In this document: in pieces, positions 7,274 through 38,674 of the stretch
How positions within the stretch are numbered: position 1 is the first letter of the stretch
Layout: the number at the start of each line of letters is the position of its first letter
Assembly (NCBI RefSeq): GCF_016906535.1
Contig: NC_057382.1
Location: 186,001 to 250,000 of the forward strand
DNA from: Rhizoctonia solani
Lineage: Eukaryota; Basidiomycota; Agaricomycetes; Cantharellales; Ceratobasidiaceae
Direction: 5' to 3'
Length of the DNA stretch: 64,000 bases
The notes under the pieces: generated by a model
Seen by the model: only the letters and a program-made list of their open reading frames with translations
The model's database searches: none
What the model was told of the DNA's origin: nothing
Position numbers and translations under genes: made by a program

Positions 7274-9462
<2,189 letters not shown>

Positions 9463-13899: not shown

Positions 13900-13965
13900 A
13901 TAAGAGCCAGTCCAATCGCATCTCAAGTTCCTACCGAGGCCCATGTATGCGCTCAAAGAGAATAT

Positions 13966-14274
13966 TTATATCACAAATGTGACAAAAAATAATAGCTTAT
14001 CTCTTAGATACCTTACGGCTAAGTAACCCAGTACTGCACTCACGTGAATAGCCCTGTCTTCAATGAGTCCAAACTCGTGGGCTCTTTGTTGCTCAACCCG
14101 GCCATTGCTCCCCTGGCCATCACGTCTCAACCCCACTGGCTCCAAAAACCTGAGATAACAACCGGTTCTCCATCTTCTATAGTCCTCAGCTTCTAAGACC
14201 TGGATGGAGCCATTGCCCGCGACCTCCTCAAGACCCCGATTTTCGTATTTGGAGCGCCAATAAACATTGAACAT
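13966..14274 (-). other. open frame of unknown repeat-like protein fragment
   Basis: A 102-residue intronless frame with protein-like composition (YRRWRTGCYLRFLEPVG; EQQRAHEFGLIEDRAIHVSAVLGYL) inside the insert that distinguishes the UGT-2 upstream region from that of UGT-1. I do not recognise the family. Absence from the paralogous position and lack of a complete domain suggest a fragment of a mobile or multicopy gene. Confidence 0.3.
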
Positions 14275-15049
14275 GGCTTGCTAAGCCTGCCCGACTTCAT
14301 CCTCAAGCTCTTCGGCCCGCAACTGTAGATGGGGTATGGAATAATGTCCAAATCCTGGAGTAGGACCACCTCGCGTTGCTTATTTGACTAATTAGCATTT
14401 ATATTTAGTTTTATTTGTGTTTTCTGTCCCCCCCCCCCACTTTTTCCCACCATTGCGTCCCCCTGTTGGTGCGACTTTCAGGTCAAACTCACTTATCGAA
14501 TTCCCCGAGTGTTCCCCTTTTTTTGCCCACCCGCTATCTTTTGTCGTCTTTGTGTGTATCTACTGGTTAACAGCCCTCGGTGTGCGACCCAGCGATCGGG
14601 CCCGAGTAATAAATCGCATCCAAAAAAAAACTACACTCATGTGAGGATGTCTGTTACAAATCATTGATTTAATCATATAATGGATACACCAACATGGGAT
14701 CATTGCAAGCACGATAGCTCTCATGATACGGCATCCGCAGCAGCTGCGGTAGGCTCTGTAAATTCATTGCTGTGCCACTGAGTTTATCGGGCGTCTCTCC
14801 TTACTGGGGAACATGGTCAGACCCATCTCGCGGGCGAGCTCGTACCCGAGGCAAACAGCAGACGAAAATATATCCACACACTTCGGCCATGACTTCCCCG
14901 AAACCGACCTGGACATAGGTCATATAACTATCTCAATACATCCCAGCTTTAAACCATCCTGGGCTACTGAAGCTTTTTAACTATATTATGAAGGTTAGGA
15001 CTGGGTCGAATATTGACTACGCGTTTCTCCAACTCTTCGCGCGATCCGG

Positions 15050-15064
15050 GCGGGTTGAACCCGC
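15050..15064. promoter_or_regulatory. 15-bp palindrome in UGT-2 promoter
   Basis: Second copy of GCGGGTTGAACCCGC, 152 bp before the UGT-2 ATG, in the same flanking context as in UGT-1. Confidence 0.4.
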
Positions 15065-15215
15065 GTTAGCCGCGCTGCGACGAATGGGTGGCTGTGCCTC
15101 TGATCCGCATATTAAAGCCTGGAGCGTCCAGACAACTACCATCCTGTCAGTGCCTGAAACTGAAACATACATCAGTCACCTTACTAATTCAATTCCAAAG
15201 CCGCTGTTTCTTTCA

Positions 15216-18200
15216 ATGATTGTCGACGACAGGATAGACAAATACCCTGGGTCCTCTGATCTACAGAGTGTTACTCCTAACGATTTCTATCAGTCACCAG
15301 ATTCAGAGTTATTCTCACAGAGTTTTGAGGCAGTCGCTCGAGCAGAGTCAGATCAACCTCTGCTTCCTTCTTACTCTCCCCATAGGCGTTCCAATGAATC
15401 CACTCTGGAGCAGGGGGGAGCATCTTTAGAAAAGCGGTTTACGTGGGGTCTTTGTGGGTATGTGGATATTAATATATGTGACTTATACTAATTCCAAATC
15501 AGCCGAAAAGGAAAGTAGTCCCAAACATGGCTCAAAGCTCGACGCCGAAGCCGCATTTCAAGACGACGGGCGACTTCAAATCTCCTTTGGCCATCGGTTG
15601 TCCAAACGATTGCCATCGAATTATGCCGAGCCGGTGAACGAAATTGGACTCGACGAAGTGGGGTTCCGCGATGCACCTCCTATGAACGTCAACATCATGA
15701 TCGTAGGAAGCAGGGGGGACGTACAGCCTTATCTTGCACTTGGCCAGAGGCTTCAAAACTACGGCCACACCGTTCGAATATCGACACATGAAACATTTCG
15801 CAAACTAGTGAAAGACTCTGGGCTACGTTTCTTTAACATCGGGGGAGACCCTCATGAGCTAATGAGCTACATGGTTCGGAATCCTGGACTCATTCCTGGT
15901 TTCGAAAGTGTGCTGAAAGGCGACATTGGGAAGAAACAAGTGATGGTCGCTGAGGTAAGTGACCGTTGTTATTATGGATATAGATGTTTGTTACTCATTA
16001 GATCTGGAAAGATGCTTGAAAGGTGTTGCCTATCGTGCTATGAAGTTGACGAAGAGTCACCGAATGAAGGTGGATTTGTAGCAGATGCGATAATATCCAA
16101 TCCGCCCACGTTCGCTCACATTCATTGCGCCGAAGCGCTTGGCATTCCGTTACTCTTGTCGTTCAGTGAGTTGGCTCTTCTCTATTTTGAGATAATTTGA
16201 CTAAGAGTAACAAGCTATGCCATGGTGTGCTACTGCTGCCTTCCCGCATCCGTTGGTGAACGTCAAGCAGAGCGGGTCGCACGAGCCAAATGCGGTGAAC
16301 TATTACTCGTACACCCTGGTAGATATGCTGACATGGCAAGGGTGAGTCTTAATCGCAATCAAAACTAAGCATCAAGCTCAGGAGCCCTCCTAGACTTGGC
16401 CATGCTATCAACAAGTTCCGTACCAAAAAACTAGGGCTCCCCTACTTGTCAACTGCATCAGCCGTCACCATGATACAGCGCAGCGCCATTCCATGGACTT
16501 ATTGTATCTCACCTGCCCTCATTCCGAAACCTCAGGATTGGTTGACACATATTGGTACGCATATATTCTCTTCAGGTCAGACTCCCACTGATCATCCCAA
16601 TAGATGTGGTTGGCTTTTATTTTTTGGATCTAGCCAATAACTACGTCCCTCCCACTGACCTGTTCGATTTTCTGGCTTCAGGAGAGCCACCAATCTACGT
16701 TGGGTTGGTTGGGCATTTCCGTTAATAATAAAAAGACAACTCGAGCTCACCACCATACATTTAGATTCGGTTCAATCGTTCTGAATGATCCTCAAGAAAT
16801 GACTAGTTAGTTTCCAAATGACAATTCAGCATGATTAAGTGACTCAATGATTTATTTTATAGGAGCCATTCTTGCAGGGATATCACAGGCTGGAGTGCGA
16901 GCTATAGTGTCGCCGGGGTGGGGCGGGCTCGATGAGACGATGGTCAAATCGGCAGGGCCACATGTATTTGCTCTCGGAAACGCGCCCCACGATTGGCTCT
17001 TTCAACATGTAAGCGCCGTCTGCCATCATGGAGGGGCAGGTTAGTATTTCCTGTGACTCTTAGGGTTCATAAATCACCATTCTTAACATTCTTAATGCCA
17101 GGTACAACTGCCATTGGCTTGAAATGTGGGAAACCTACAATCATTGTCCCATTCTTTGGTGATCAGGTGTGGCCTACCTCTGTATGATGTCCTCATCCGG
17201 AATTTAAGGATGATTTTCAACCAGCACTATCTACCAGGGATTGATCCTTAAACTGAAATTCAGTACGTACTGAAAGTCAGCACATGAAATACTGAGATCC
17301 AAGGCTGACTGAAATCCCAAAAATCGCCAATTTAAACACGTATTGAAAGTTAGTATGAATCAAGTTTGCGACTTTTTTAAGTATGTTATGATACAAATAA
17401 GGACGTAAAGAGAACATTCCAAAATCCGAATCAGTATCATAGAACATGAAATAGACTTGCCATTGTGTAAATGGTCAATCAATCTCAACCGTCACATCAA
17501 GCATATCCACTTGGCCAACAACAGATGTACGTTCAACAACAAATGAGCCCTGGTGCTCAGTTGTTATACGACCAATGAGACAGTCAATTTTAGTGGCATC
17601 AACAACCTCAGCACCAGCATAGTTGCCAGATGAGAGCCGGTACTCCACAAGGTCAGCATCATTATGGTACCGCAGGTGAGGGAAAGCCATAATCACAGCA
17701 AGAACTTGGGTACAGGGGTTTGGCACATTTAGGCTTGCAATTAAGTCAGCCTCAATGACAACAAACATCCCGGTTTGACCATAGCTGAGTATCTCATTGG
17801 GGAACTCAACTGCATGAGGCCGGTCCCAGCGCCAACGAGACATTTTTGAGTGAAACTAAGTTAGAGGTAGGGTAAGCAATTGCCTTGCAAGTCCAAATGC
17901 TACTTACCCGAACATGTGATGCATCGCGCATTGTTTTATTACTGGGCACAACCATAGCCCCCCGAATAACGTCACCACCAACAACAGCCTCAGCCAGTGA
18001 CTTGTCCAGTCGCTGCATCCTACCCCACACCTTCAAGGGCCGGTTTGCTAGTGCATTGGACATGTCTTCTACAGGGATACCTATTACAGGGCCAAGGTAT
18101 TTAGCAATCTTGAGCTGTAACAAGCGTTGAAGGGGGAGTGTTTTTGATGGGTTGATAAAGACAAGGTCAGGGTAGTGATCATACTGGACTCCATGCCTGA

Positions 18201-21200
18201 TATTCTCCTGACGTTCATCAAGCTCAAGTTCTTCTGTAAGCCCATATACCAACTTAATTTGTGATAACTGGGCAAGCTGGAGGACACGACGGTTGATGCT
18301 AGAGTATGGGAAACGGCGGCTCATGCTTGCACGTGTAAGTGCACCACAAAAGCGCTCCATTGGGAAGGCCCAGTATGCCCAGACAGGACCCATGGCCTCA
18401 ATGTTGTTGGCAATGTGAAGGAGGGCGTGGAGTGGGAGGGTACAAGCAGAAAGGCGGGCTTGATCATTCATGTAGTAGTATCTATACACCAATACACATG
18501 TTAGCTACACCGGCAAAATCAAGTACATATTAAATCAACTTACTTTTCGTAGTCTTTCACCCATTTTGCAAATCCTTCACGAATGGTAACTATGTTGTTG
18601 GGTGTGATCTCAAAGTCAATACACATATTAATGAGGCGGACAAGTTCAATAAAATGCCAATAATACTTTTGATGGACAAAGCGGCCTCGCAGGAGCACAG
18701 GACCAAGCATAGTGGCAAGTAGTAACCGAGCTTTGGCAGTAAGTTCAGCACGCTTTTTCTTTGGATTGGGTACGCGACAGCCAAACGTGTATGGGATGTT
18801 GTTGCCGGCTAGAGGGCAGGCCTCAGCAATTGTTGTCCATACGTCTGGGTGCAGCAGATATTCTTCAGTCCCTGATCCAAATGCCTCAAAGTTTCCGCTT
18901 CGCGTCCACAAGTCAAAGAGAGTGGGAATAATATTTTCAAAAATTAAGTGCATAAAGTCGTGGGGAAACGAGACTGGGAATGAGAGGCCGGGCACCCGTG
19001 CAAGGGGGGCAAGTCCATTGATGCCTGTTCGTAAGGACCGCCGACCCTCTTCAGCATCATTTTGAGCCTCCTCCACCCACATTGCTTCCTCAAGGTATTC
19101 AGTGTGTGTTCGAAGGGGGAGGTTCTGCGTGTCGTACACCACTGTAAGGTGGGTACGCGCTGGTGGAGGCGGGCGCTTGTGGCCGTACTACTACACTGGC
19201 TTATGTAATCTAACTGACTAAGGCTAACTACTAACTACTAAGTCGCTTAAGGCGACAACTAACTATCTACTGTCGATGCGGAGGGGCCTGAGGCCTGGAG
19301 GTGTGGTAGGTTAGGTAAAGGGGTGAGTGCTACTGATACTACTTGGGGGCCGGCTACTTAGCTGGCTGACTACCTTCTCTAATGTGTAAGAGACAAGGTA
19401 AAATCGACTTGGTGTCTCCAAGCGATTTCCCTGCTGTATATATAGACAAAGCACACTATCTACATGGTCTGTGCTCGTGAGAGAAAGAAGTAGCTAAGAC
19501 AAATGAGAAGCGTGCTGCGGGCTGCGCAGAAGCGTGGATTTCTCCTAAGCGCCCTTGGCACGGCATCTTGGCGCGGCATCTCGGCATAATAAGCGCCGAG
19601 ATCACGTGATCGAAAAACAAAAGGTATCCAGTCCGTAAAAAATACTACAAATATCAGAAAAATCGTGCAAGTCCAATGGTATATGTTAGGAGGTTATAAC
19701 ATTGCCCCCCCCTTAAAGGCTCTTGGCGGAGTCACGAGCCTTTTTCAGTTGTGACTTGTTGAAGCGTTTGATTTCCTCCTGACTATGCTCAAGTAACTCC
19801 TCTGGTTCCCATGAGTTGTCCTCGGGTCCATATCCTTTCCACTTGATTAAGTAAAACCATTTTCCCCGTTGCCTTTTTGAGTCAATGATCTGTTCTACCT
19901 CGTATTCCTCTTCTCCCTCTATTGTTTCAGGGGGAGGTCGTTCTGGAAATGGCTGGCTCGGAGACTCATGAACTTTGGATAACAACCCTACATAGAACAC
20001 ATTGTGGATCCTCAAGGTTTCAGGCAACTTCAGGCGGTAGGCGTGGCTGGAAATTTTTTCTGAGATCTCGAAGGGGCCCAGTCTTTTAGGGTCTAGTTTA
20101 TTGGAATTGGTTCTTAATTCCACGTTTTTTCCGTCCAACCAGACTTTTTCACCGATTGAGTATTCTGGTGTAGTTCCCTTGTCTCTGGCCATTCTTTCCT
20201 TACTCATCCTGAGGGCGGCCTCGGCTTCTTTCCATTCGTTGGCTAGGTTGTCTACCAATTGATCTGCCTCTGGGACGTTGGATGGCACATTGGAGGGGTT
20301 CATTATTGGGTTTCTTCCATAGACCAGTTCAAACGGTGTCTTTCCTGTAGCGGCGTGCTTGGCATTGTTGTAGGCGTATTCTGCCAAAGGTAGCCACGTG
20401 GCCCAATCTGAATGATCCGCGGCCATGTAAGAACGGAGGTAGAATTCGATGAACTGGTTTACCCGCTCTGTTTGACCATCCGATTCAGGGTGGTAAGCTG
20501 AAGAGAATGACGGCTTGACTCCTAGCCTTTGGTAGAGGGCCCTGAGGAATTTTCCTGTGAACGTGGTTCCTCTATCTGAGACGGTCCTAATGGGCAATCC
20601 GTGAAGTTTCCAGACATGTGTGATGAACAAGTCCGCAAGTCCCTTGGCTGTCACCTTTTTTGATGTAGGGATGAAGTGGCCGAATTTTGAAAAGGAATCT
20701 ATTACCACTAGGATTGCATCATGACCTTGGGACTTTGGAAACCCTGTAATGAAGTCATAGGAGATTGTGTGGAACGGGAAAGGGGGGACTTCTAATGGCT
20801 TCAAGGATATAACCGGGGCGTGGGCACGGCGATTTGCTTGACAAGTAGGACAACATTCTACCCATTCCTTGGAGGACGACTTCATTCCTGGCCACCAATA
20901 GTTGCGGCTCAGGAGTTCCAGGGTTCTTTGTTGTCCAGGGTGCCCTGCCAGGGGTGAATTGTGGAATTCTCTGAGTAGACGTTCCTTCAGGGCTTCAGAG
21001 TCTGGAACAACTAGTTTTCCGCGGTACCATAGGAGGTCTTCCTCCCAATCATAGTCTCTGTAAGCTTTCCGAATGGAGGGGGGTGCATTGTCCGCATCTT
21101 CTGTCAGGAATTGGATAATGGGTTCTAGGGATGGGTCCTCCCTCAGTTTGTTCCTGATTTCCGTGACTATCTCAAGTTCTTCCTCAGACGTGTTGGCAAA

Positions 21201-24200
21201 TACCTCGGATGGTAACATGACCTCTGGTTCTTGGGGTTCATCTACATAGTCCGCTCTTCTGGATAGTGCATCCGGTTTCCCCGACTGTTTCCCTGGGCAA
21301 TAGTGGATTTCAAAATTGAAGTCGCCCAGGAATATGCGCCATCTAGCGTGTTGCCGGTTGAATGTTTGTGCCTGCATCCAATATTCCAAGTTCCTATGAT
21401 CTGTGAAGACTTGTGTCGTAGACACACTCGATACCAGGGAATTTATTCCCATTTTCTCAAATTTAAACAAAGACTAACGGACAACATTTTCGATCACGTG
21501 ACTTCGGCGCTTATATCATACGCTAAGCGCCGAGCCACGTCCCCATCCGCACTTACCTCAGCATACGTAGCCACCTCCACCGGATGACATCATTATGACA
21601 CGTCAGTGACACGTATGCATGAGTAAGGCCAACTGCGGAGCGGGGTTCTTATTTGATATGGTATTGCATATAAATGTATTTGTAATTAGATAGCTCTGTA
21701 ATATATAAGGAGGCCAATCGACCACGGTAACACCCAGGTCAATTACCTCTTGTCGCATCCCACTTTGTACGAGGGCCTTATAGCCCAGTAAGCACTTAGT
21801 CACACGCCTTAAGCGTTGTTCTTGCTGTACATACGTAGCTCGCCGCCGCCTTAAAGCGCGCGGTCATCGTAGATAGTTGGTTTGTCGTTGTAGGGTACCC
21901 ATCGCCGCCTTAAGCGGTTCTCTGTAGTAGTTACACGGCCACAAGCGCCCGCACCCTCGACGTCCTTACAGACGTCTAGGACACTAGGTAATCAACCTTA
22001 AGTTGGTTGCAAACCGTGCCCACCAAGCACACCTTACTTAGTCTCAACAAACAAGAAGGTCCCCTGTACTAGCACGAGGGAAATCACCTGATCGGGCTCG
22101 CCTTTCGCTATCAATAATCAAACTAGCGTCGGCCCCAGGTAGTACCGAATTGCTATAAGGCAGACGGATTCTAATTGTCCGCGTACCACCGGTCACCGCA
22201 CCCTTTGTCAGCGGAACTAGTCAGCAGATCCACCCGCTTGCAGAAAACCCGTCCCACATCACGCCCGCACACGGCAGTCGATTGGTTGATAGGGACTGTC
22301 CAACGCTAGGCGGTTGACGCAAGTTCTTAGCGCCAGAACAATAAAGCGACCCATAAGTCCTGTCACAGGCACCATCCCCCCTACTTCGCCCATCATTACG
22401 TCCCGCACCCCCTCTCGCGCTTCCTCCCGCGCTTCCCAACGCGCCACCTCCCACCAAGGCCGCTCATATCCCCATGAGATGGCAACCCGTTCCCGGAGCA
22501 CCGCTCGTCCCCCGTCCCCTCTCGATCAAGGAGAGTTGGGACCCGCTCTTCCGGCAGCCGCCGATGAGCCGAGAAGCCTCGAACCAGAGGTCTATGGGGA
22601 AATCTCCCTCGGCCGCGCAATCTCCCTCCTCCTGGGATTGCAAAACCAAGTCATCCGGCTCGAACAGGAACTCGAGGAACTCAAGGAGGTCAACAAGGAA
22701 GCCCAAGATTGGATGGGAGCGGTTGACCAAACCCTCACTCGAATCGAGGCTATTGGGGGGCCCCAGCCCCACACACCAGAAGACCGGAAGCCCCCGGCAG
22801 TCGAGGCCACGCCCAGGCCCATATCCAAAACCGACCCTCTTCCAGCGCCTAGTGCGCCCCTCATTGCCTGGGCCAACCCCACCAAGCCGCCCATCACCTT
22901 TGCCCAACCAACTCCCGTCCGGGCTCCCCCGAGAATCCCTACTCCCACTCCACCTGCGCCTATCAGGCTCCAATCCCCCCTTGCCTCTCAACCAGCGGCT
23001 CCAGTAGTCGCTTATCAAGCCCCCGTCAAGGTGGATCACCCCGACGCCTATACGGGGAAGATTGGTAATGAGTCCAGACAATGGCTCACCAGGATGATGG
23101 CATGGGTCCGCCTCAATCAGCGAATGTTCCCAACCGATCAGGAGGTATTGTCCTTCCTCCTGATGAACATGAAGGACACGGCAGGAGCCTGGGCACACCC
23201 CCACCTTGATCAACTAGGGTCTCACAGGGCCATCATCCAAACAGTCGAGGACTTTAGGAGGGAGTTCCTATCCGCATTTGGGAATCCGGACGCTACACGA
23301 GCCGCTGAGCGGCAAATCACAAACCTTACTCAGACAGGAACCTGTGCTGAGTACATCACTAAGTTCAGGACCATCGCCATGGACCTGGACTGGAACGACG
23401 CCGCCCTTTGCGGGCAATTTGCACGTGGCCTCCACTGGGAGGTCAGCCGCCTCATTGCCACTCGAGAACGGCGACCCACCACCCTCCTTGAGCTGCAGAA
23501 CGCGGCTCTGGTCATCGACAACGCCCTCCGTGAGGAGCGCGCCAGCCACCCGCCTAAGGGTAATAAGTCTGGCACCTCCAATACCACCCCCAATAGGGGG
23601 GCGAGTACCGGCCAACAGGCCACCAGACCAGGGCGCCTCTCCGGCAACCCCAACTTTGTCTCCAAGGAGGAGCGTAACCGCCGCAGGGCTGAAGGCCTTT
23701 GCATCAAATGCGGTAAGCCGGGCCACAAATTTGCGGAATGCCGCACTGGCTGGAAAGCCACACCCAAGGAGGAAGGGGCCAAAAAGGAAGCCGCCAAGAT
23801 TGGCAAAGAGTCTGGACCCGAATCGGGAAAAGACTAAGGGTACCTGCTGCCGCGCGCAAGGACCCCAAGGACTCTGGTCGTATAGAAATTTGTAATATAT
23901 CCAATAGCACGAATAGAATCTCCCCACTCTTCACTATTTCTATTACACCAGAGAAACGAGCGGAACACTTAGAAGTCCTGATTGACTCAGGCGCCACATC
24001 TTCTTTTATGCACCCCCGTACCGCGGAATCACTCCGCCTCCCACTTATCGATCTCCCTACGCCCCGTACCGTTACTATGCTCAATGGGTCGAGCCCCCAG
24101 GCAGGCAAAATCTGGAAGAAGGCCAATCTAACCTTCTCCTTTGATGGCAAGAAAATGACCGAGACCTTCCTCATCTGCAATACAGGGTCTCACGCCGCCA

Positions 24201-27200: not shown

Positions 27201-30200
27201 TCGAAAAAGAAATGAAGGAAAAGGCCCTTGGCGCTGCCAAGGCCCTTAGAGGGGGGGCAGTGTCGTAGACACACTCGATACCAGGGAATTTATTCCCATT
27301 TTCTCAAATTTAAACGAAGACTAACGGACAACATTTTTGATCACGTGACTTCGGCGCTTATATCATACGCTAAGCGCCGAGCCACGTCCCCATCCGCACT
27401 TACCTCAGCATACGTAGCCACCTCCACCGGATGACATCATTATGACACGTCAGTGACACGTATGCATGAGTAAGGCCAACTGCGGAGCGGGGTTCTTATT
27501 TGATACGGTATTGCATATAAATGTATTTGTAATTAGATAGCTCTGTAATATATAAGGAGGCCAATCGACCATGGTAACACCCAGGTCGATTACCTCTTGT
27601 CGCATCCCACTTTGTACGAGGGCCTTATAGCCCAGTAAGCACTTAGTCACACGCCTTAAGCGTTGTTCTTGCTGTACATACGTAGCTCGCCGCCGCCTTA
27701 AAGCGCGCGGTCATCGTAGATAGTTGGTTCGTCGTTGTAGGGTACCCATCGCCGCCTTAAGCGGTTCTCTGTAGTAGTTACACGGCCACAAGCGCCCGCA
27801 CCCTCGACGTCCTTACAGACGTCTAGGACAACTTGTATCGGCTTTTCTGTTGCCTCCAGGAATATTCTCCATTCCTCCAAAGCCTTGATGATTGCCAGAA
27901 GTTCCTTGTCGTGGGTGTCATAGTTTGCTTCTGCCCCTGAGAACGACTTAGACATATAGGCAATAGGGTGTAATCAATTGTCTGGTCCCCTCTGGCTTAG
28001 TATGGCGCCCATAGCTACTCCCGATGCATCTGTTTCCAAGTAATAGGGTAGGTTTGGGTTGGAATGGATGAGGACCGGTGACTGGGTAACAAGGAGTTTT
28101 AGTTCCTGGAACGCTGCTTCCTCCAGGTTACCCCATGACCAGGGGGTTTCCTTCTTGGTGAGGTTGTGGAGGGGGCGTGCAACCAAGCTGAAATTAGGAA
28201 TGAAACGTCTAAGATAGTTGACAAATCCTAGGAAGGCCTGAACCTGTTTGACCGTTTTGGGAGTGGGCCAGGAAGTGACGGCCTCAATCTTCTTTTGGTC
28301 CATTGAGAACCCAGCTGGGGAGATGACGATACCAAGATAATCTACGGTTGTGACATGGAAGTGACACTTAGAGAGTTTGCAGAATAACTGGTTCTTCATC
28401 AGCCGTGATAAGACCTCCCTGACATGGGTTGGGTGGTCTTCGGGTTTCTCTGAGAAGATCAGTATATCATCCAGGTATATAACCACAGTGACATCAATGA
28501 GGTCCCTAAATAAGTCGTTCATGAAATGCTGGAACGCTGCGGGGGCATTGGTAAGACCAAAGGGCATAACTAGGTATTCGAACAGGCCATATTTGGTTCT
28601 GAAGGCCGTTTTCCATTCGTCACCTTCCTTGATTTGGACATTATTATACCCCCAGCGTAAGTCCAATTTAGTGAAGATCTTGGCATGTCTGAGTTTAGCC
28701 ATGAGATTGTCCTGTCTTGGTAACGGGTATACGTTCTTATGGGTGACGTCATTCAGCTTTCTATAGTCAACAACTAGTCTGAGGGACCCGTCCGCCTTCT
28801 TTACAAACATGACCGGGGCACCTGCCGAGGAAGTACTAGGGCAGATCTTGCCCGTTGCCAGTTCCTCATCAATGTGTTGTTTCAGTGCCTTTGATTCCGC
28901 GTCAGTCATGCCGTAAATGGGCCCAGGTGAGAGTTTGGCATCCGGAATCAGGTCAATGGCTATATCATATTCCCGATGGGGGGGTAGGACCTTGAACTCT
29001 TCTTCCCCAAAGACCTTAGCAAATTTGTGGTATTGCTCAGGTAAGTCGGCTAATGGGTCTGGATCGGCCTCTTCCTTGGAAGCAATTTTGGCTTGGTCTG
29101 GGAATGAAATTATGCCAGAGGACCAGTCGATGAGTGGGGATTCTTGGGTAAGCCATGTCATGCCAAGTATAGCTGGGGTATTGCCAATAGGGCAGACTAG
29201 GAAGGGGATGGAATGGGGATGGCCGTTGGCCGAGACCGCAAGTTGTACCTGGTGCCATATGCGACCAGTCTGGGATATTGTACCATCTAACATTCTCACT
29301 ACTCGTGGATTTTCGAGTAGGGTTTTTGGTATTTTATATTTTTCAACTATGGCGGGTGATATAAAATTGGATGTTGCGCCAGAGTCTATCAGGGTTTTGA
29401 GGGTTTCCGTTGGGTGGTTATGCATGACTAGATCAAGATATAACAAAGGTTTTTTATTCGAATCTAGGGCTAGAGAGACAAATTCAAACTCCAAATCTGA
29501 TACATGCATATCTATTTTTGGGGCCAGGGGCTTGACGGTAGTCCTTGGCCTTATTCTTTTCCCAACTCGACATCCTCAGCAACCTTAGCCACCTCTTTGA
29601 CTGTGGCTTTCCACCCGTTGGGGCATTGCTTGATGCCGTGGCCCTTCTGGCCGCATTTCATGCACAGCCCGGATGCACGGCGGCGGTCCCTTTCTTCCGG
29701 TGTGACATAATTTGGGTCCTCTGAGAGGCGGACCCGTTGGGTGGTAGTGGTGGAAGTAGTGGCCACGGTGGCCGGGGATTTGGCAGGTGCCTTTTTGGGA
29801 CGGTTCTCCTCATTTTCGCGGCAAATGTTGTCAATCTTAATAGATGCCGCAAAAATTGCCTCGAGTTCATCGGGAATACTATCCTTGGTTGATAGCAGTT
29901 CCTTGACCTTCCAGTGGAGGCCTCGCGTGAACTGCGCAATATAGGCCTCCTTGTTCCAGTCCAATTCCGCCATGAGATTGCGGAACTCCGTGACGTACTC
30001 GGAGGTGGTGGTTGTTTGGGAGAGAGCCGCAATTTTTCTAGCGGCGGCTCGCTTGGCGTCGGGATCGGCAAATGCTTCTTTGAACTTGGCCGTTAAGGCC
30101 TGGATGGTGGTGGGGGGATTGCCTTCGCCCTTGATGATGGCCCCAATAATGGGGAGAGCCCAATCGGCAGCTTTATCGGTCATATGGTATAGGATCCATA

Positions 30201-33200
30201 CGACCATTTGCTCCTCCTCGTCAAATTGGTCCCTATGTAGGGCAACCCAGAGCATCATTCGATCGAGCCACTGAGTGGCCTTGCGTCCCCTGGTATCACC
30301 CTTATAGGGGTCTGGGAGGTCCATCTTTGGCCGCTTTACGCTGGACCCTGCATCAAAAGGGGTGAGAGATCCCAAGTGCCGTTTAGGCGTTCCTTGAGGC
30401 TCCTTTTTGGGGTGCCTTGGCTCCTCCTTGTCTTCTGAATCAAAACCTGTGCCCCTTGATGGTCGGAAGGGGGCCTTGAGTCCAGGCCTAATCGTTGCTG
30501 GAGTGTGGGCTTCTCCTCCCGTGTGGGTGGGAGGAGTGGTAGGCCCAGTCGATGGGCCAGGCTTTGTTTGGGCTCCGCCCTGGTCCTTGTCTCCAACGAG
30601 GTCGTTGGTCTCCTTGCATAAGGCGGTGAGCTGAGTGATTTGCTCGCCTTGAGACTTGACTTGGTCCTGGAGGGACCCAACTTGTGTGGAGAGGGCTTGG
30701 ATAGCCTCGAGGAGAGTGCCAATGGACGGCTCTGGTTCCATTCCGGGCAAGTTTCGCGGAGTGGGAGATGATTTGCGAGTGGGTGGTTGGGAGTTGGCTG
30801 CCACGGAACAACGACTAGAGCGGCTGGTAGGACGGGAGTATGGGTGGGGGACGCCAGAGCGTGTGGATGGAATGGTGAAAACGGCGTGGGGGAAGTAGTG
30901 CCTATATCAGGACTTATGAGCGGTTTTTCTGTAGTATACTGGCGCTAAACCCTTGCGTCTAGTACCTAGCGTTGAACTGTCCCTACGACAAATCAGCAGA
31001 CCTGGCGGTCGTGATATGGGCGGGTTTTCAGCAAGCGGGTATTTCAGCGGTCTAGGGTCGCTGACTACTGAGTTCCGGCGAAACTCGGGGTATGCGGGGG
31101 ATTAGAGCCCGTCTGCCTTATAGCAATTTGGTACTACCAGGGACCGACGTCTGTTTGATTATTAAAGACAAAAGGCAAGTCCAATCTGGTGTTTTCCCTT
31201 GTGCTAGTACAGGGGGTCCTCTCCTTGTCAATCAAGCCTACTACAAGTCGATTTTACAATGTCGTACACCACTGTAAGGTGGGTACGCGCTGGTGGAGGC
31301 GGGCGCTTGTGGCCGTACTACTACACTGGCTTATGTAATCTAACTGACTAAGGCTAACTACTAACTACTAAGTCGCTTAAGGCGACGACTAACTATCTAC
31401 TGTCGATGCGGAGGGGCCTGAGGCCTGGAGGTGTGGTAGGTTAGGTAAAGGGGTGAGTGCTACTGATACTACTTGGGGGCCGGCTACTTAGCTGGCTGAC
31501 TACCTTCTCTAATGTGTAAGAGACGAGGTAAAATTGACTTGGTGTCTCCAAGCGATTTCCCTGCTGTATATAGACAAAGCACACTATCTACATGGTCTGT
31601 GCTTGTGAGAGAAAGAAGTAGCTAAGACAAATGAGAAGCGTGCTGCGGGCTGCGCAGAAGCGTGGATTTCTCCTAAGCGCCCTTGGCACGGCATCTTGGC
31701 GCGGCATCTCGGCATAATAAGCGCCGAGATCACGTGATCGAAAAACAAAAGGTATCCAGTCCGTAAAAAATACTACAAATATCAGAAAAATCGTGCGAGT
31801 CCAATGGTATATGTTAGGAGGTTATAACACTGCGGATCATAGCGTCGGGTGGCATGTGGTTCGTCATTGAATGGTCGTGAGAGGGGGATGTAGTTTGTAT
31901 TTGGGTGTGGCCCATGTCTGGCACGTACGCCGTGAATCTTACAGGCTTGACAGGGCAGTTTGCCATTGGGACCTTTCATCTCCATCATTTTGGCAACTGC
32001 AGGCATATCACCAAACGCAGCAATGAGGTAGGCACGGAGCACAAAGGGATGACGATTGGCTGCATTAAATGCTGGCACTCCACGTGCAAGTTCCTCAAGC
32101 TCATCGATGAAAGGCTCGAGGAATGTGTCAAGTTCCTTTGGGGTCCGTGGGCCGGGAATCACGCCAAGACACAAAATGTTCTCAAGACGCGTTCGAATTG
32201 AGGGTGGGAGGTTATAATTGATAATGATTAGTGGCCAGCATTGCTGCTTCCGCGTCTTGAAGGGGCCTACGCCATCAGTAGAGAGCCCAAGGGCCATGTT
32301 GGTATTGCTTGAGAAGAATCGATGACCCAGTCGTGTACCACCCAAATATACAAACTCCTGAAGGAGTTGAAGGTAATAGCGGCCATCAAAGATGTCAGAG
32401 AGGGTGTTGGGTTTGGGCCGCCGCCGCGATCGATATTGGAGCAACTCGGCCATAGGAGGGCTGCGGAAAAGGTTTATCAGACGTGGGATAAGGGGGAGGT
32501 AGTGGAAAGTTTGCCGCGGGACACGGCGAACAGGGTTCTTGCGGTGTGCTGTGTACCGTGCTTCACCACACCATGGGCACAACTCAAGCCGCTGGTATAC
32601 ACCAGTGTATGCGATGCATGAGTTGATGCAGCAGTGGATTGCCCTCGCACCAAAGGCTGATATCTTGTCTATCTGCCTCTGAAGCTTGGGTTCCATGGGC
32701 AAGTTGGCGAGGTGGTCGGGGAAAGCGCGCGGCAGTTTGCTGTACGCGCGCCCACTGATGTCGGTATCAACCTTGTAGTTGAATGCCTGGACCGTCAGTC
32801 GGTGGTAATCTGGTAGCCGTAAACCTGAATTGGATTTATTAGCATTAATATCGAAGAAAAAATCAATTACTTACCCCCTTTGCGTAACAACTCCTCCTGT
32901 ACAATTAACTCGTAGTAGTCGTGTGGCGCAATGCCGTGCATCCAAGGTAAGGCGGCCAGTGGGTCCTCCTCCTCCTCCTCCTCCTCCTCCTCAGCGGGGT
33001 TGTATGGGGCAAATCGAGGGGACTGCTCTCGACTGGAGGGCCCAGGGCCAGCCCCAGGGGTGACGAATCGGAAGTTGGGGTCAAACCCAGGTTCTCCCAT
33101 TGCGTGATCAACAACGGGCAGTGCAGGTGATTGAAGGAGTTCGCAAAATGCAGGGGGAGGCGGGACATTGGGAGGGTGTCGTCGGTTAAAGTGTGGCAAT

Positions 33201-36200
33201 GGGCAATGTGGTGGTGGGGAGCGGGCAACCAACCCAAGTCGTCGTAGCCTGGTGAGTGTTGCCTCGGCCGCGGTGCGAAGTTTCGAGGCCCTTCTCCGAA
33301 GAGATGGGCAACCATACTTTTGGTGTCGCCAATAGGTCTTGGGCGCCCGCATTTCGTGACATTCGGGGCACCTCCATCGAGTCCCAGCCATTGTACTGAG
33401 CAGAGTCAGTTGCAAGAACACGACGATACAAAAAAAGGACTTACAAGAGCAAAAAGAAAATGTAAACTTGTGTTAATCCAACGAGGATAGTGAAAACAAA
33501 CCGCAAAGAGTGTGTTCAAAGTTGGTTGAGCAATCTATAACTACAACGTACATTGTGAGAACTTATACCGCAAGAAATAAACCAGAAACTTACCTACTGG
33601 CCACATTACGCGGCTTTTGTGGCGTGAAGGTGCTGTGCATCAAATTGGGGAATAAGCGAATAGACCCAGAAATTACGCGAGTGCGGAGGCGTGTGCGCCC
33701 CACAACCGCAACTACGGGACCACCGGACAACAAAAATAGTTAGTGACCTACTTTCAATAAACCGCAAAAGGCTACGTACCTCATCGACTTCAGTTTCCTT
33801 GGCTTTGCTTCTCCATCCACGCAAACAACAGAAAATGCCAATAATATAACGGCGGCAAGGGGACGGGTTTAACGTGCAAGCAGCAAGCCAAAAACACACG
33901 CGTCGCAGTTAAGTAAACAACGGATAGAAACATAACAAGCAGAATATAAGTGAGCAACTTAAGTAGGGGGTATTGGGCATGTCGGTGACTGAGAGAAGGA
34001 GCCTGTTTGATTGGTGTCGATCAGGTTGAAGATCGCAAAGCATTGATATGACAAATAAGAGACACGTACCTAATATAGATACATATTAAGCCCAAAAAGT
34101 AAATAACCAAGGAGAAACGTACTGATTGGTAATTGGCTGTGTATGGCGCGGCTGACCGGGGCAAGGTGAACACCGGTGGAGCTCCGAGTCGGATAAGGAT
34201 GAAACACAATTACCAAGTGAGCATAAGTAGAATTCGCAAGCGAAATCCTAGTAAGCCACCACCACCACAATGCCTCGGTCTCGAGGTATTTATACAGCCC
34301 CTTTTTGGCCGCCCAACGCCTTTGCACATCAAGTCCCTCTTGATCTGAACCCCCGGTAGCCAGCACTACGCGAACGAAAAACTGCTAATAATTTGATTAT
34401 TTTACAACTACACTCGGCAACCCGACCTCCTACCCTTGACTATTTTGACTATCCCTCCAACTCCAATGGCTCCATCTCCATGGAAGGGCAAGGGCAGGGC
34501 CTCCAACAACCAGGATTCGCGCCGTCGAGCCCTAGAACGCTCGATCGCGAGACACAACGTCAAGAGGGCGCGCCGCGCTGAGCAGCGTACCACCCGTAAC
34601 GCCCCAGACCCCTTCGACACTCTCCAGGCCATTGATTGGCCACCTTCTGACGACAACGGAGACGATGACGATGACGAGACCGGCAACAACGCTGGTTTGG
34701 GTTCTCGGGAGCCATCTGAGAACGATTGGGCTGCCATGTGTCGTGCGTATATCTAATATATATTCACGCCAGACCAATAGATTACGCTGCTAATTAATTA
34801 TTAGGTGCCAATGAGGCAATGTCTCAAGAACTCGCGCATTTGCGAGCAATTTTTGGACGTAATGACCAGCTTACCCACGGTGCCACCCCGGGAGCGTCTG
34901 GTTCGCGCTCTCGAAGTAGCGTTCCTCGTCCCTCCAGCGCTGCTCCTGTTTCCCTTGGGGAACCTGCCCTCGACTATCCCCCCACTTGCCCGCCATCGCA
35001 TACTCACCCATCGCCTTCTGACGACCCAGCTCCCCGCCGTTTTGTGCCGCTCCCGAAGTCTAAGACCAGTGCGAACATTGGCGACATACAAAACGATGCC
35101 GGACTCGGTGGCAACCTGGCTCGTTGGCTGGAGATAAGCGTAAGTGTGGAAGATGTGTCTTCCCCCGGTTCAATATACTATTTACTCTCTTTAAACTTAT
35201 AGAACATCATACGTGAGCTTATGACGCGGGTTGGGTTAGACTATGGTAACTCGTGGTCGAATCAGGACAAGACCAAGCTTGGTATCTTGTACGCATTGGT
35301 ACGTGTTATATTCATTACGTGAAAACTTGACCCTATGGTTGACTGGGGGTCAGATTCTCAAGGAGGCTCCCGAGCTCGGAGTCTTTCAAAACGGGTGGGG
35401 CACCGAGTGGCTCGTCCAGGCAAAGTTCAACAACCATTGATGCTACAAGACGAAACGCATGAAGCAGAGACACTCGAATGTCAAAGGTAGGTCAATTGAA
35501 TGACACATTCACATTGATTACTAAATATCGCCTCCATTTGGTGCACAAGCGGAGGACAGTGCTCAAGGTCATGGTCCCCCTCCACCTCCACCTTTGGAGA
35601 CTCCGTCTCCACAGCTGACCCTGAAGTCACCCCCACCGCCCTCTCCCCTCTTCCTTGCAGCATCCCCCCTGCGAGAACCAACCCCTCTGCCTCAACCAGA
35701 GCCAGGGCCAGAGCATGAGGCGCCCCAACCTCAAAACCCTCCCCAGCAATCGCCCCCGCCACCAGCTTCCCCTCGGCTCCAGCGTGAACACCCCCCGGAG
35801 CTACCTACACTCCGGCTCTTGCACCCGCCTCCCGACTCGGAGCCTATCCATCCCCCCGCAGACCAGCCCCCAACCTCCCGGCGTCGTGGGCCTCGCGCTT
35901 GCCGTTTGTGCGGCGATCCCAGCACCTCGCGCTCGCGGTACAACCTACGCACTCGCGGTGCTGCAGCAGCGGCTGCTGAGGCCCAAACAGTTGCGGCAAT
36001 CGAGGAGAACCAGCGGCAAGCGGGTGGAACCTTGGGGAGTAAGAAGCGCTCCTGTAGAAGCGAATCGCCACTGCGCCTGCTGGAGGAGTCTGACGACGGC
36101 GGGCGATTGAGCGATGAGGACTACTGAGGTGAGTTTTTGATAATAATATTCTATTTCTGGCACGTCCTACCTGCTGAATCCCGGATTTTGCATGCATAGG

Positions 36201-38312
36201 GTTTTTCTAGACGTTTCCTTGTTTCTTTGTTTTTTTTTTTTTTTTCCTTTATATATTACCCAAGATTCGTGATAATTGTAACCCTGCATGTAGTGCCGAA
36301 TTTACGCATGAATTAGCCTGAAATATCTTACATTGTTGCTCATTTCAGTACGTTTTAGTGACCCGTTCAGTGGCGCAATCAGTACCATCCTTTCTGAATA
36401 TCAGCACGAAAGGTTTTGATTCGAGCGTATGTTTAGTATGATCCCTAAATTAAGCACGCACCGTTTCAGCAAGATTCCACCTAAAATTCAGTACCTAAAA
36501 ATTGCGCCCAGATTACGCGACCTCACTTTCAGTACGTATCGTACAATGAATTAACAATAATTGTGGGACAATCCACTGGAAATCAGCATAGAAAATTGCA
36601 CGAAACAACCTAAAAACATCATCCTTAATATCAGGACGAACTGACCTCAATGTGAATTTCTGCACGTCAGTTCAAAAACGTGCTGAAAACTCGAAGCATA
36701 CTTAAAACACGAATGACCTGAAAATCGGAAAACGTACTGAAACAGGGCAAAGTAAAAACGGGTGAAAGTAAGGACGAACGATTATTAAACAGCATTTATT
36801 ATACATCTAAATTCAGTATCATACAGTGTGATTCCGGCGTCCCAGTTTTCAGGATCTCGACCTCATACAGAGTACAATGTTCCGAAAGAATGCTCTTCCT
36901 CATAACGGGGCTCTGCTGGCGCTAGCCATGGTGGGCTGCTCAGCTAGCGCAGCAGGGCGCTGGACCCGGACCCCTTGACTCGAGAAACTTGACTTCGGAG
37001 GGCTTTGCAGCTGCTATTCGAGCTGCTCTATCCCCGGATACCATTGAAGCGGCACAAAGAATTAGTGAAATGATAAATAAAGAGGCAAGTCTAGGGTAAT
37101 CGATCATAGTTTATGTGAGCGCGGTTTAACTTGGCGCTCAGGATGGGGCCAAAAACGGAGTGGAATCATTTCACAAGCATCTACCGTTACTCAACATGCG
37201 GTAGGCCAAGTTAACTATGTTCTTGGAATATTCCGCAGACTGACCATGCGTATGAAGGTGTGATCTTGACCCCAAACGAACCGCAGTTTGGTATAGCCCA
37301 ATACATAAATTACGATTGAGTGCATTTTCTGCTCAAGTATTGGCAGACCGGGGAGAAATCGATATGAATAAATTGAAATTATACAGTAAGTCGGGGGGCG
37401 AGTGGCGTTGTGATTCGGTACTGACTGGTTGTGAAGGATCCCGCGAATATAAGACGCATGCATCGGCCACAGACCCTATTAGCGGCACTGCACTTCCACT
37501 TCTCAGAGTTGTCAATGGTTTTGTTCATGGGGTGGTAAAAATAGGATCCAGTAGGCCTGATAAAGGGGTTGCAAAGATGGTTACTTCAACCGTTGGAGGT
37601 AAGTGAATAATGCTTCGAGAGAAACGCATAAACGTCTTCATTGTCTCTACTATAATAGGAGTCCAAACGGTTCTTCAAGGTGTAACAGAGGGGCTTACCA
37701 ATGTTCCTAAGCTTTATGGGAGTGAAGTTCGCGAAACTAAACCAGTGACTGGATTCGCCTCTGGTATCGTGGAGGGTGGTAAGGTGAGTAACTCGAGCTT
37801 GGCTAGGCTCCGCATAACCTCTGAGATATTCAATAGGGCTTCGCCTATGGACTTTATGATGGAATTACTGGTTTAGTAAATGAACCGGTGAGGGGTTTCA
37901 AGGAAAAGGTCAGATTTTAGCTATATAAACAAGCGTTCATCTATAGCCAACGAGATGATTATATAGGGTGCTTTGGGTGCTGCCATCGGAGTTGGCACTG
38001 GGGGTAAGTTTACATGGTCTAGTGCAACCTACACCATTAACTTTATTTAACTTTCAAGTACTAAGCTTCTACATGAAACCTGCTGCTGGGTTTCTCCAAT
38101 TTTTTTCCATGCCGATGGAAGGCGGGGTCAAAGATATCCGCACTCTGTTCACCAAAGGTATAAGCCAGGAAAGAATAGCGACAAGACGTGCCGAAGGCGT
38201 TCTTGTTGTAAAACAATCGAGTCAAGAAGAGCAAGATTCGATTATCCGAGCGTTCGCTGAACACAAGGACAAAACACTGCGCGATAGGAAAGGAAAAGGA
38301 AGGTTACAGTAA
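15216..38312 (+). CDS. sterol 3-beta-glucosyltransferase-like protein, copy UGT-2, with a 19.8-kb intron
   Basis: Same enzyme type and exon plan as UGT-1. Exons: 15216-15453, 15503-15954, 16012-16165, 16215-16341, 16394-16554, 16604-16703, 16765-16805, 16863-17039, 17102-17166, then 36926-37084, 37142-37200, 37258-37385, 37437-37598, 37659-37783, 37837-37908, 37967-38003, 38059-38312. They sum to 2511 nt (836 residues), and the first 16 match UGT-1 exon for exon in length. Intron 9 (17167-36925) contains the nested transposons. Its donor GTGTGG and acceptor GCTAG are intact, and deleting the element plus one TAC copy leaves 61 nt versus 62 nt in UGT-1. No stop or frameshift is seen in any exon, so the protein could still be made if the giant intron is spliced; premature polyadenylation inside it is the obvious risk. 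Intron 10 uses a GC donor (GCAAGT at 37085). The donor-binding motif is PHDWLFQHVSAVCHHGGAG. Confidence 0.82.
17178..17198 (+). repeat. left terminal inverted repeat of the DNA transposon
   Basis: CTCTGTATGATGTCCTCATCC pairs with the reverse complement of 36852-36872 at 17 of 21 positions; the first ten bases are identical. Confidence 0.75.
17199..17474. repeat. left subterminal region of the DNA transposon
   Basis: Non-coding, with short inverted motifs such as ATTCAGTACGTACTGAA near 17257 and related TCAGCAC and CTGAAAT strings, matching motifs in the right subterminal region. Likely transposase-binding sites. Confidence 0.5.
19130..19701 (-). repeat. 3' LTR of element A
   Basis: 572 bp, starting TGTCGTACACC and ending TTATAACA in plus-strand reading. 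Nearly identical to 31260-31829. Confidence 0.95.
19713..21408 (-). pseudogene. element A pol, 3' part: RNase H end, integrase, chromodomain
   Basis: Continues the pol frame from 27831 across element B: PIQ joins VFTDHRNLEYW when one ACTTG copy is removed. It then shows the end of RNase H (GKQSGKPDALSRR), the integrase HHCC zinc region (GHPGQQRTLELLSRNYWWPG; CCPTCQANRR), the catalytic core with SYDFITGFP, VSDRGTTFTGKF and GQTERVNQF, and a C-terminal chromodomain (EEYEVEQIIDSK; WFYLIKWKGYGPEDNSWEPEE). Catalytic acidic residues are present. Broken only by being cut off from its 5' half. Confidence 0.9.
21414..21983 (+). repeat. 5' LTR of element B
   Basis: 570 bp, TGTCGTAGACAC...GTCTAGGACA, nearly identical to 27261-27830. 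The repeated GCGCTTA/TAAGCGC strings inside may be regulatory. Confidence 0.95.
21984..22478 (+). other. leader of element B
   Basis: Untranslated region between LTR and gag. It shares blocks with the leader of element A (for example CCCTGTACTAGCAC and TTGCTATAAGGCAGACGG). No obvious tRNA primer-binding site next to the LTR. Confidence 0.6.
22479..23837 (+). CDS. element B Gag
   Basis: Structural capsid protein of element B. The frame is open further upstream, but the first good in-frame ATG is 22479 (MATRSRSTARPP). A coiled-coil-like segment (LGLQNQVIRLEQELEELKEV) and a Pro-rich linker precede the retrotransposon Gag domain (MMAWVRLNQRMFPTDQEV; GAWAHPHLDQLG; EYITKFRTIAMDLDWNDAAL; QFARGLHWEV). 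A CCHC zinc knuckle (CIKCGKPGHKFAEC) lies near the end. Stop at 23835-23837, just after a GGGAAAA heptamer likely to direct -1 frameshifting into pol. Confidence 0.9.
   Translation: MATRSRSTARPPSPLDQGELGPALPAAADEPRSLEPEVYGEISLGRAISLLLGLQNQVIRLEQELEELKEVNKEAQDWMGAVDQTLTRIEAIGGPQPHTPEDRKPPAVEATPRPISKTDPLPAPSAPLIAWANPTKPPITFAQPTPVRAPPRIPTPTPPAPIRLQSPLASQPAAPVVAYQAPVKVDHPDAYTGKIGNESRQWLTRMMAWVRLNQRMFPTDQEVLSFLLMNMKDTAGAWAHPHLDQLGSHRAIIQTVEDFRREFLSAFGNPDATRAAERQITNLTQTGTCAEYITKFRTIAMDLDWNDAALCGQFARGLHWEVSRLIATRERRPTTLLELQNAALVIDNALREERASHPPKGNKSGTSNTTPNRGASTGQQATRPGRLSGNPNFVSKEERNRRRAEGLCIKCGKPGHKFAECRTGWKATPKEEGAKKEAAKIGKESGPESGKD
23825..23831 (+). promoter_or_regulatory. candidate -1 frameshift site, element B gag/pol
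   Basis: G GGA AAA in the gag frame fits X XXY YYZ. A -1 slip here reads G K R L R V P into pol, six bases before the gag stop. Element A has the same heptamer at the same place (29557-29563, minus). Confidence 0.6.
23829..27268 (+). CDS. element B Pol: protease, RT, RNase H, integrase, chromodomain
   Basis: Polyprotein read in the -1 frame relative to Gag (open from 23738, overlap 100 nt). Domains in order: aspartic protease (LIDSGATSSF), reverse transcriptase (RLVVDYRRLNNRTKK; YLDDILIYSKDD with the YxDD-type active site), RNase H (LETDASGAALGSILSQ; FTDHRNLEYW), integrase zinc region ([20 protein letters not shown]; CKTCQ) and core (SDRGQVFNNKFL; GQTERVNPTVE), then chromodomain (EEYEVKGITDME; FRVKWKGYGSEENTWEP). 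Stop at 27266-27268. Oddity: the first integrase acidic residue, Asp in SYDFI of element A, is Asn here (SYNMI), so the integrase may be inactive although the frame is intact. Confidence 0.9.
27261..27830 (+). repeat. 3' LTR of element B
   Basis: 570 bp, same borders as the 5' LTR, followed by the ACTTG target copy. The pol stop codon lies within its first 8 bases. Confidence 0.95.
27831..29563 (-). pseudogene. element A pol, 5' part: protease, RT, start of RNase H
   Basis: The pol frame is entered by a -1 slip near 29560 (G K R I R P). It contains the protease (LIDSGATSNFIS), RT (RLVVDYRKLNDVTHK; VMPFGLTNAPAAFQ; YLDDILIFSEKPED) and the RNase H start (LETDASGVAMGAILSQ). An in-frame TGA at 27974-27976 interrupts it after RGPDN; element B has CGG at the matching codon, which suggests a C-to-T change of a CGA. 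The frame then continues (LHPIAYMSKSFSGAE; THDKELLAIIKALEEW) until element B cuts it at 27835. Doubly disabled. Confidence 0.88.
29551..30804 (-). CDS. element A Gag
   Basis: Capsid protein of element A. The open frame begins at a GTG at 30804 (AANSQPPTRKSS); the first in-frame ATG is at 30741 (MEPEPSIG), so the start is uncertain. A predicted helical segment (IQALSTQVGSLQDQVKSQGE) precedes the Gag domain (MMLWVALHRDQFDEEEQMVV; LMAELDWNKEAYIAQFTRGL), and a CCHC knuckle (CMKCGQKGHGIKQC) lies near the end. Close in layout to element B Gag. Confidence 0.88.
   Translation of the reverse strand: MAANSQPPTRKSSPTPRNLPGMEPEPSIGTLLEAIQALSTQVGSLQDQVKSQGEQITQLTALCKETNDLVGDKDQGGAQTKPGPSTGPTTPPTHTGGEAHTPATIRPGLKAPFRPSRGTGFDSEDKEEPRHPKKEPQGTPKRHLGSLTPFDAGSSVKRPKMDLPDPYKGDTRGRKATQWLDRMMLWVALHRDQFDEEEQMVVWILYHMTDKAADWALPIIGAIIKGEGNPPTTIQALTAKFKEAFADPDAKRAAARKIAALSQTTTTSEYVTEFRNLMAELDWNKEAYIAQFTRGLHWKVKELLSTKDSIPDELEAIFAASIKIDNICRENEENRPKKAPAKSPATVATTSTTTTQRVRLSEDPNYVTPEERDRRRASGLCMKCGQKGHGIKQCPNGWKATVKEVAKVAEDVELGKE
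29557..29563 (-). promoter_or_regulatory. candidate -1 frameshift site, element A gag/pol
   Basis: GGGAAAA on the minus strand, six bases before the gag TAA, phased G GGA AAA. Conserved in element B. Confidence 0.6.
30805..31259 (-). other. leader of element A
   Basis: Non-coding stretch between the 5' LTR and gag on the minus strand. It shares blocks with the leader of element B. No clear tRNA primer site adjoins the LTR. Confidence 0.6.
31260..31829 (-). repeat. 5' LTR of element A
   Basis: 570 bp, matching 19130-19701; followed on the plus strand by CTGCG, the right target copy. Confidence 0.95.
33392..34465. other. divergent promoter region inside the DNA transposon
   Basis: Lies between the 5' ends of the leftward transposase and the rightward accessory gene. 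Only short frames without domain character; upstream exons of either gene could hide here but I cannot support any. Confidence 0.5.
34466..36127 (+). pseudogene. second gene of the CACTA-like transposon (accessory protein)
   Basis: A plus-strand multi-exon gene divergent from the transposase. The ATG at 34466 opens a basic region (RRRALERSIARHNVKRARRAEQ) and an acidic one (SDDNGDDDDDETG). Introns near 34743-34803, 35139-35201 and 35300-35353 link to SQELAHLRAIFGRN and IIRELMTRVGLDYGNSW, then LKEAPELGVFQNGWGTEWLVQ. A later exon (about 35550-36127) is very Pro-rich and has CRLCGDPSTSRSRYNLRTRG before the stop. It is reminiscent of CACTA accessory (TnpA-like) proteins by position only. An in-frame TGA at 35438-35440 lies upstream of a Lys-rich continuation, so it is either a nonsense mutation or a missed splice. 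Confidence 0.5.
36128..36872. repeat. right subterminal region and TIR of the DNA transposon
   Basis: Non-coding, with many copies of short motifs around CAGTACG, TCAGCACG and CGTACTGAA in both orientations (for example near 36347 and 36530), mirroring the left side. Ends in the right TIR (36852-36872). A 17-T run lies near 36218. Confidence 0.65.
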
Positions 38313-38674
38313 TTTCATAACAGATATTTATATACAATCTTCTTTGATACTCTTGTTTCGAGGACTATGCATTGATCGATATGTTTAATATATGCGCATA
38401 ATGTTATTATTGAATTCGTACTAGAATGGCTCCGTCACATGGTTCGCGATCGATGACACATCCAAATGACAACTTTGATTTCAAACCAGTCATATAGGTC
38501 ACTGATTTTGCACTGCGGCTGTCCCCCGGCTTTCGTGATGCGCGCGTTGCGCGTCTTTTAAGCATTCCTAGCCTCTATTCACCACGCTAAATTTGGACAC
38601 AGTAGTTCTAAAATGACATTAAATAGCCGCTCTGCCTGACGGGATTGGGTACTTGGACGTTCCCCTCGCATACC
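38313..38674. other. intergenic, UGT-2 to UGT-3
   Basis: The first ~190 bp still resemble the 3' flank of UGT-1 (for example TTTGATTTCAAACCAG against TGTGATTTCAAACTTT); the rest is the UGT-3 promoter. No inverted repeats like those upstream of UGT-1/2. Confidence 0.6.

Follow-up and report, generated by a model that had tools for sequence, protein, structure and literature searches.

The window analysed here, that is the whole stretch of 64,000 nucleotides, corresponds to positions 186001-250000 of chromosome 13 (C13) of Rhizoctonia solani XN, a strain assigned to AG1-IA (PMC9890813) with a genome of 40,703,773 bases on 16 contigs. It harbours the gene UGT-2, whose product matches the Pfam profiles Glyco_transf_28, EryCIII-like_C and UDPGT and is thus a glucosyltransferase; related records bear the name of either a family 1 or a sterol 3-beta-glucosyltransferase. 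Immediately downstream of UGT-2 lies a third glucosyltransferase gene (window 38640-43000), so that at least three are arranged in tandem. Between its 5' and 3' exons UGT-2 of C13 carries a large insert, and the features are as follows (window coordinates).

14988 to 17166, plus strand: 5' exons of the C13 copy of UGT-2 (glucosyltransferase, family 1 / sterol-type), last residues ...CGKPTIIVPFFGDQ; the 5' start is uncertain
17167 to 17177, plus strand: start of the host intron (11 nt, with the GT donor), the final 3 nt being the TAC target-site duplication
17178 to 36872, no strand: entire insert (19,695 bp), its terminal inverted repeats being imperfect, with identity at 20 of 26 positions and throughout the first 10
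17178 to 19129, minus strand: left portion of the outer EnSpm-type element; it contains subterminal repeats similar to ACGTACTGAAA and, on the minus strand, the 3' portion of the element's gene
17209 to 17237, plus strand: candidate cryptic acceptors within the element, AG ends at 17208, 17224 and 17237, i.e. 42, 58 and 71 nt from the donor
19130 to 31829, minus strand: retrotransposon 1 (Ty3, chromodomain), target duplication CTGCG, split by retrotransposon 2
About 19130-19701 and 31260-31829: LTRs of retrotransposon 1
21414 to 27830, plus strand: retrotransposon 2 (Ty3, chromodomain), target duplication ACTTG, in sense with UGT-2
21414-21983 and about 27261-27830: LTRs of retrotransposon 2
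31835 to 36872, minus strand: right part of the outer element, with Transposase_21 (tnp2) in the frame 31785-32870, interrupted by retrotransposon 1
36873 to 36925, plus strand: second TAC and remaining host intron with the branch region and the TAG acceptor
36926 to 38312, plus strand: 3' exons of UGT-2, in phase and open

Comparison with C11 reveals the empty site. A segment of this contig (minus strand, ~1.884-1.914 Mb) matches the window with 98.7% identity at 243-17177 and with 99.1% at 36873-50011. The matches to the left and right of the insert overlap by three bases, TAC, which delimits the insert proper to 17178-36872, and because nothing of this sequence is present in the C11 segment, UGT-2 is uninterrupted there and has an intron of 61 nt. 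The insertion is genuine, and its ends are located to the single base; the empty site on C11 together with the perfect 3-bp duplication shows that it is not an assembly join. The C11 alignment also upholds what an earlier note on this DNA had described, namely a single, in-phase insertion with a TAC duplication within an otherwise ~60-nt intron. The boundaries given there (exon end at 17166, GT at 17167, TAG ending at 36925, exon start at 36926) are identical to ours, and so are the host intron sizes, 61 nt for UGT-2, as read from its C11 copy in our case, and 62 nt at the same position in UGT-1. That all exons around the nest stay in phase holds as well, as each of the 19 non-empty exons of the C11 model has its partner on C13 without any frameshift (19/19), one exon near the 5' end being 3 nt longer on C13 than on C11. 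The proposed number of 17 exons could not be reproduced: the automatic models, whose 5' ends are unreliable and which read through some UGT-1 introns, comprise 20 entries for C11 UGT-2 (one of them empty) and 19 for UGT-1. The claimed similarity of exon lengths does stand for the downstream exons of 127, 65, 128, 72 and 37 nt, which are equal in UGT-1 and UGT-2.

The empty site is part of a far larger duplication. C13 read from its telomere and C11 read to its telomere are collinear, in inverted orientation, at every point that was compared in both (C13 0-9.9, 186-236, 251-254, 281-282, 330-331, 503-504 and 750-751 kb; genome DNA comparisons are based on 1-kb queries), and a PF02992 pair near 840 kb lies on the same C11/C13 diagonal. 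For C13:1.003 Mb no second copy was found in the genome. From C13:1 to at least 751 kb, C13 and the right end of C11 thus represent a telomere-to-telomere collinear duplication with 98-100% identity, which is about 99.9-100% at the proximal points and lower in the distal 236 kb. This pair could be either a terminal duplication inside one nucleus or an arm held by two nuclei; 2.56 heterozygous SNPs per kb are given for XN (PMC7884421). Between C13:236.0 and 250.9 kb (window 50011-64000; C11 about 1.84-1.884 Mb) C11 carries about 29 kb extra, a further large indel by which the arms differ.

The term transposon nest, already used in the earlier description, is correct, since there are three layers in the insert, each of which is flanked by a separate target-site duplication. 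In the outer element, the minus-strand frame 31785-32870 encodes a transposase domain that matches PF02992 (Transposase_21 / tnp2) with E = 2e-26, and in a genome search with this profile 36 of the 40 matches listed exceed the curated cut-off. A second copy of the outer element, with a length of 6,987 bp and TAT flanks, is found at C4:115901-122887; this copy is nest-free, the site of retrotransposon 1 being empty. The target-site duplication comprises 3 bp in both cases (TAC on C13, TAT on C4). EnSpm/CACTA termini are given as CAC..GTG and CA..TG (PMC12730594). The ends of the element are neither CACTA nor CAC..GTG, as both the C13 and the C4 copy have CTCTG..CAGAG, and we therefore name it EnSpm-type on the basis of its transposase and do not assign it to the canonical CACTA elements. 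Subterminal repeats are located at both ends, 10 of the 27 matches to ACGTACTGAAA in the window falling into 17258-17386 and 36343-36742 (up to two mismatches allowed, motif picked by eye; none of 100 shuffles reached 27).

Retrotransposon 2 possesses gag, protease, RT, RNase H, integrase and chromodomain, all present, and retrotransposon 1 shows the same Ty3 domain set on either side of the inner insertion, by which its RNase H is severed. Both are bounded by an LTR pair with TG..CA ends and by 5-bp duplications (CTGCG and ACTTG, respectively), and the LTRs of each pair are about 99% alike. At least 40 LTR relatives were scored in the genome.

The copies of the outer element on C13 and C4 show 2 non-CpG differences in 6,985 aligned sites, compared to 209 non-CpG differences in about 29,990 sites of the host flanks of C13 and C11 (rates compared by Fisher test). 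As the element has fewer such differences than the host flank, it was inserted after the split of C11 and C13. Retrotransposon 1 arrived after the C4 and C13 copies had parted, and retrotransposon 2 later still. In this course of events an EnSpm-type transposon entered the 61-nt UGT-2 intron on C13 after the divergence of C11 and C13, duplicating TAC; a Ty3 chromodomain retrotransposon then inserted into this outer element, and a second one into the first. We considered the LTR ages as dates for these steps and rejected them, because all of the differences within the LTR pairs (5 and 6 sites) are CpG transitions (11/11; one further difference listed for the first pair falls outside the LTR end and was excluded). 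The C-to-T bias at TCG inside the nest makes LTR dating of the nest unsafe.

In the outer element, all 25 substitutions between the C13 and the C4 copy are transitions, 23 of them at CpG and 21 at TCG. Sorted by the copy that carries the T, 20 changes at TCG and two at other CpG sites fall on C13, one at TCG and two at non-CpG sites on C4. When the outer element and the two LTR pairs are pooled, 30 of 230 TCG sites are changed compared to 4 of 644 other CpG sites (Fisher p = 1.5e-14), whereas the host flanks show no TCG preference (14/885 TCG vs 44/2,152 other CpG, p = 0.47). The load per TCG site is 0.5% in the C4 copy of the outer element and 10% in its C13 copy, and each LTR copy has 12%.

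Two further repeat families lean toward TCG like the nest. In one of them (21 copies, taken from 40 listed places) the columns are variable at 12 of 12 TCG and at 17 of 40 other CpG sites (p = 4.5e-4). The same column test gave no significant difference for the other one, family B (21 copies from the 80 matches listed; 7/7 TCG vs 12/16 other CpG, p = 0.27); a test of copy counts was significant for this family, with T counts of 92 over 7 TCG and 55 over 16 other CpG sites, related copies being treated as independent. The repeat-rich stretch C13:500001-510000 contains 28 TCG and 531 TTG, and the other 11 tabulated 10-kb stretches contain 215-369 TCG each.

Within the C13 outer element 10 of 51 TCG sites are changed within 1 kb of the nest vs 10 of 146 beyond (Fisher p = 0.015; rank test p = 0.018, one-sided and post hoc). 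In the host DNA within 2 kb of the insert, 0 of 61 and 1 of 60 TCG sites are altered on C13. One suggestion from this distribution of sites is that the many-copy retrotransposons were targeted, with a leakage into the outer element that halted before the gene. After nesting, C-to-T changes occurred almost only at TCG in the nest, the flanking host DNA being spared, and these changes are probably the trace of a repeat-directed, methylation-linked, RIP-like silencing.

As in RIP, only C-to-T (G-to-A) transitions in a fixed context are observed in repeats. RIP, which acts before meiosis in crosses, is expected to hit both copies, but the TCG changes number 20 in the C13 copy and one in the C4 copy, and because the C4 twin is spared we label the process RIP-like and not RIP. 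A DNA methylase (PF00145, DNA_methylase) scores over the cut-off at one genome locus only, C3:2182119-2183213, in two exon pieces, and may be of the RID/Masc1 type that RIP involves or of another class. The presence of this single methylase gene would also agree with an ordinary slow deamination of methylated CpG that needs no repeat-directed process, and so would the CpG transitions, which make up 11/11 LTR and 23/25 outer-element differences, as well as the findings in R. solani AG8, where changes are reported to be biased to CpG with no preference for TCG (PMC4014442). However, deamination of this kind would have to explain why TCG sites are so much more affected than other CpG sites, why 20 changes in one copy face a single one in its twin, and why TCG is not preferred at the CpG sites of the host, and we therefore regard it as doubtful.

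It is possible, and we propose it tentatively, that R. solani AG1-IA has a TCG-specific, repeat-directed hypermutation of transposons which is triggered by many-copy retrotransposons, spreads into the low-copy outer transposon, fades with distance and stops before the gene. If this were true, the outer transposon would buffer its host gene, a TCG RIP-like defence would either predate the divergence of Pucciniomycotina from Agaricomycotina or have evolved on two occasions, and such hypermutation would be invisible to CpA-based RIP indices applied to the R. solani genome.

Concerning the consequences for UGT-2, the transposon sequence begins 11 nt past the donor on C13. Reading on without splicing adds VWPTSV followed by a stop, and splicing to the cryptic acceptors at 42, 58 and 71 nt leads to a stop after 11, 8 and 11 residues, so that all four exits stop within 6-11 codons. 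In an acceptor weight matrix made from 28 predicted introns, one of which holds the C11 version of the tested acceptor, these three score 5.1, 1.0 and 4.5, and the true acceptor scores -2.72 on C13 and 1.1 on C11. The training acceptors range from -3.6 to 9.4, a range that includes the true C13 acceptor, and the cryptic acceptor at 71 nt outscores 17 of the 28. Across the nest, 1,151 of 1,223 AGs equal or exceed the score of the true C13 acceptor. The public protein P0016 (551 aa), a computed gene model of the C13 UGT-2 copy, matches the window and has the C-terminus FFGDQVWPTSV, which is the unspliced donor read to the first stop. The motif before the junction is present in 113 of the 120 homologues listed, 107 of which continue with xWW or xFW, the exceptions being P0016, P0004, P0039, P0041, P0068 and P0073. 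In the C11 model of UGT-2, FFGDQ is found at residue 628 of 955.

The donor in front of the transposon sequence would thus be left unspliced or be joined to a cryptic acceptor in the first 40-140 nt of the element; by either route translation would stop within about a dozen codons and the transcript would end inside the nest, leaving a C13 protein that lacks everything after FFGDQ. Judged from sequence, UGT-2 of C13 is most likely truncated, a null allele or paralogue, with C11 carrying the working copy. A null copy on C13 may be tolerated because the C11 copy is intact.

The alternatives offered originally were a giant intron or an early termination, and the latter is much better supported (P0016, the acceptor scores and retrotransposon 2 in sense), the former not being favoured. 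A working 19.8-kb intron appears unlikely. That it is accurately spliced and that UGT-2 of C13 is still functional would be in line with the intact donor, acceptor and downstream frames and with the fact that the nested layers took nothing from the exons; but the 28 predicted introns of the gene family measure 49-76 nt, mean intron lengths in fungi are given as below 0.5 kb (PMC8476143), the cryptic acceptors come before the true one and the public model P0016 is truncated, which makes such splicing quite improbable. Intact donor and acceptor dinucleotides and open downstream frames are to be expected in a young allele and in a functional one alike.

Seven differences between C11 and C13 cluster within 143 bases to the right of the insert (36903-37045), none of which is a stop, a frameshift or a TCG change. 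The exchange of E to G at 36969, beyond the insert, is derived-looking, and the variant at 36903 seems to be common to another strain, as P0004 reads H there. Due to this seemingly shared variant the cluster is not clearly decay, and a decay of the downstream exons was rejected, because stops and frameshifts are lacking and at least one variant seems to be older than the insert.

An assembly artefact, in which transposon reads were mis-joined on C13, might draw on the mean length of the XN PacBio reads of 11.5 kb (PMC7884421), which lies below the insert length and allows few spanning reads, and on the near-identical second copy of the region, but it is hardly credible: each of the three layers is flanked by an exact target-site duplication, the corresponding empty sites exist on C11 (outer element) and on C4 (retrotransposon 1), and mis-joining would not yield such a nest. 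That the outer element was inserted after the split, that nesting and TCG changes followed, and that a truncated C13 UGT-2 and a record of RIP-like silencing are the result, is in our opinion well founded and probable.

The nest is most likely an ordinary loss-of-function insertion that could be neatly dissected. Its value is that the empty sites of the outer and the first nested element as well as the nest-free twin are all available in one assembly, so that mutations after the insertion are directly readable. Because the LTR divergence of about 1% consists wholly of CpG transitions, mostly at TCG, clock ages of retrotransposons in the R. solani genome may be inflated.

The key survey on TCG hypermutation is reportedly Horns et al. 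2012, as it is referred to in citing papers. This type of hypermutation is placed in Pucciniomycotina (PMC5381629, PMC12730594, PMC4352252), and CpG (not TCG) hypermutation is in print for the agaricomycetes Tricholoma matsutake, Heterobasidion parviporum and R. solani AG8. The authors of the AG8 study anticipated a CpG context for R. solani, not a TpCpG one (PMC4014442). We found no report on TCG-context hypermutation in Agaricomycotina in the open-licence literature. The TCG signature in the nest is familiar from rust-type fungi and not expected in the agaricomycete branch. According to the XN genome paper RIP is not prevalent (PMC7884421), and this published negative for Rhizoctonia may stem from indices blind to the TCG context.

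Among known systems, the insertion resembles Tgmt* in the F3'H gene of soybean (PMC2613891), where a 20.5-kb tnp2-type transposon in one allele abolishes the normal product; in contrast, the outer element in UGT-2 comprises 7 kb, lacks CACTA termini and resides in a basidiomycete, and it is the two LTR retrotransposons of the nest that account for the size of the insert. Transposase_21 and inverted repeats not starting with CACTA are also known from SmTRC1 and the fungal TRC elements (PMC1636069), but SmTRC1 is described with CCC termini and 2-bp duplications instead of CTCTG and 3 bp. In AG1-IA BRS1 (PMC9890813) transposon clusters likewise alter one member of a duplicated gene pair, the insert in UGT-2, its layers and its empty sites being absent from the consulted parts of that account. 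With R. solani AG8 (PMC4014442) the nest shares CpG-biased C-to-T changes, which in AG8 are denser near repeats; however, both genes and repeats are reported to be affected there, whereas in the XN nest TCG is dominant and the host flanks are spared. A parallel in context is given by the Microbotryum transposons (PMC5381629), with RIP-like C-to-T changes at TCG (TpCpG) on both strands and in repeats only. That pattern is reported to be conserved among Pucciniomycotina, while R. solani is an agaricomycete in which one copy was hit and its twin spared.
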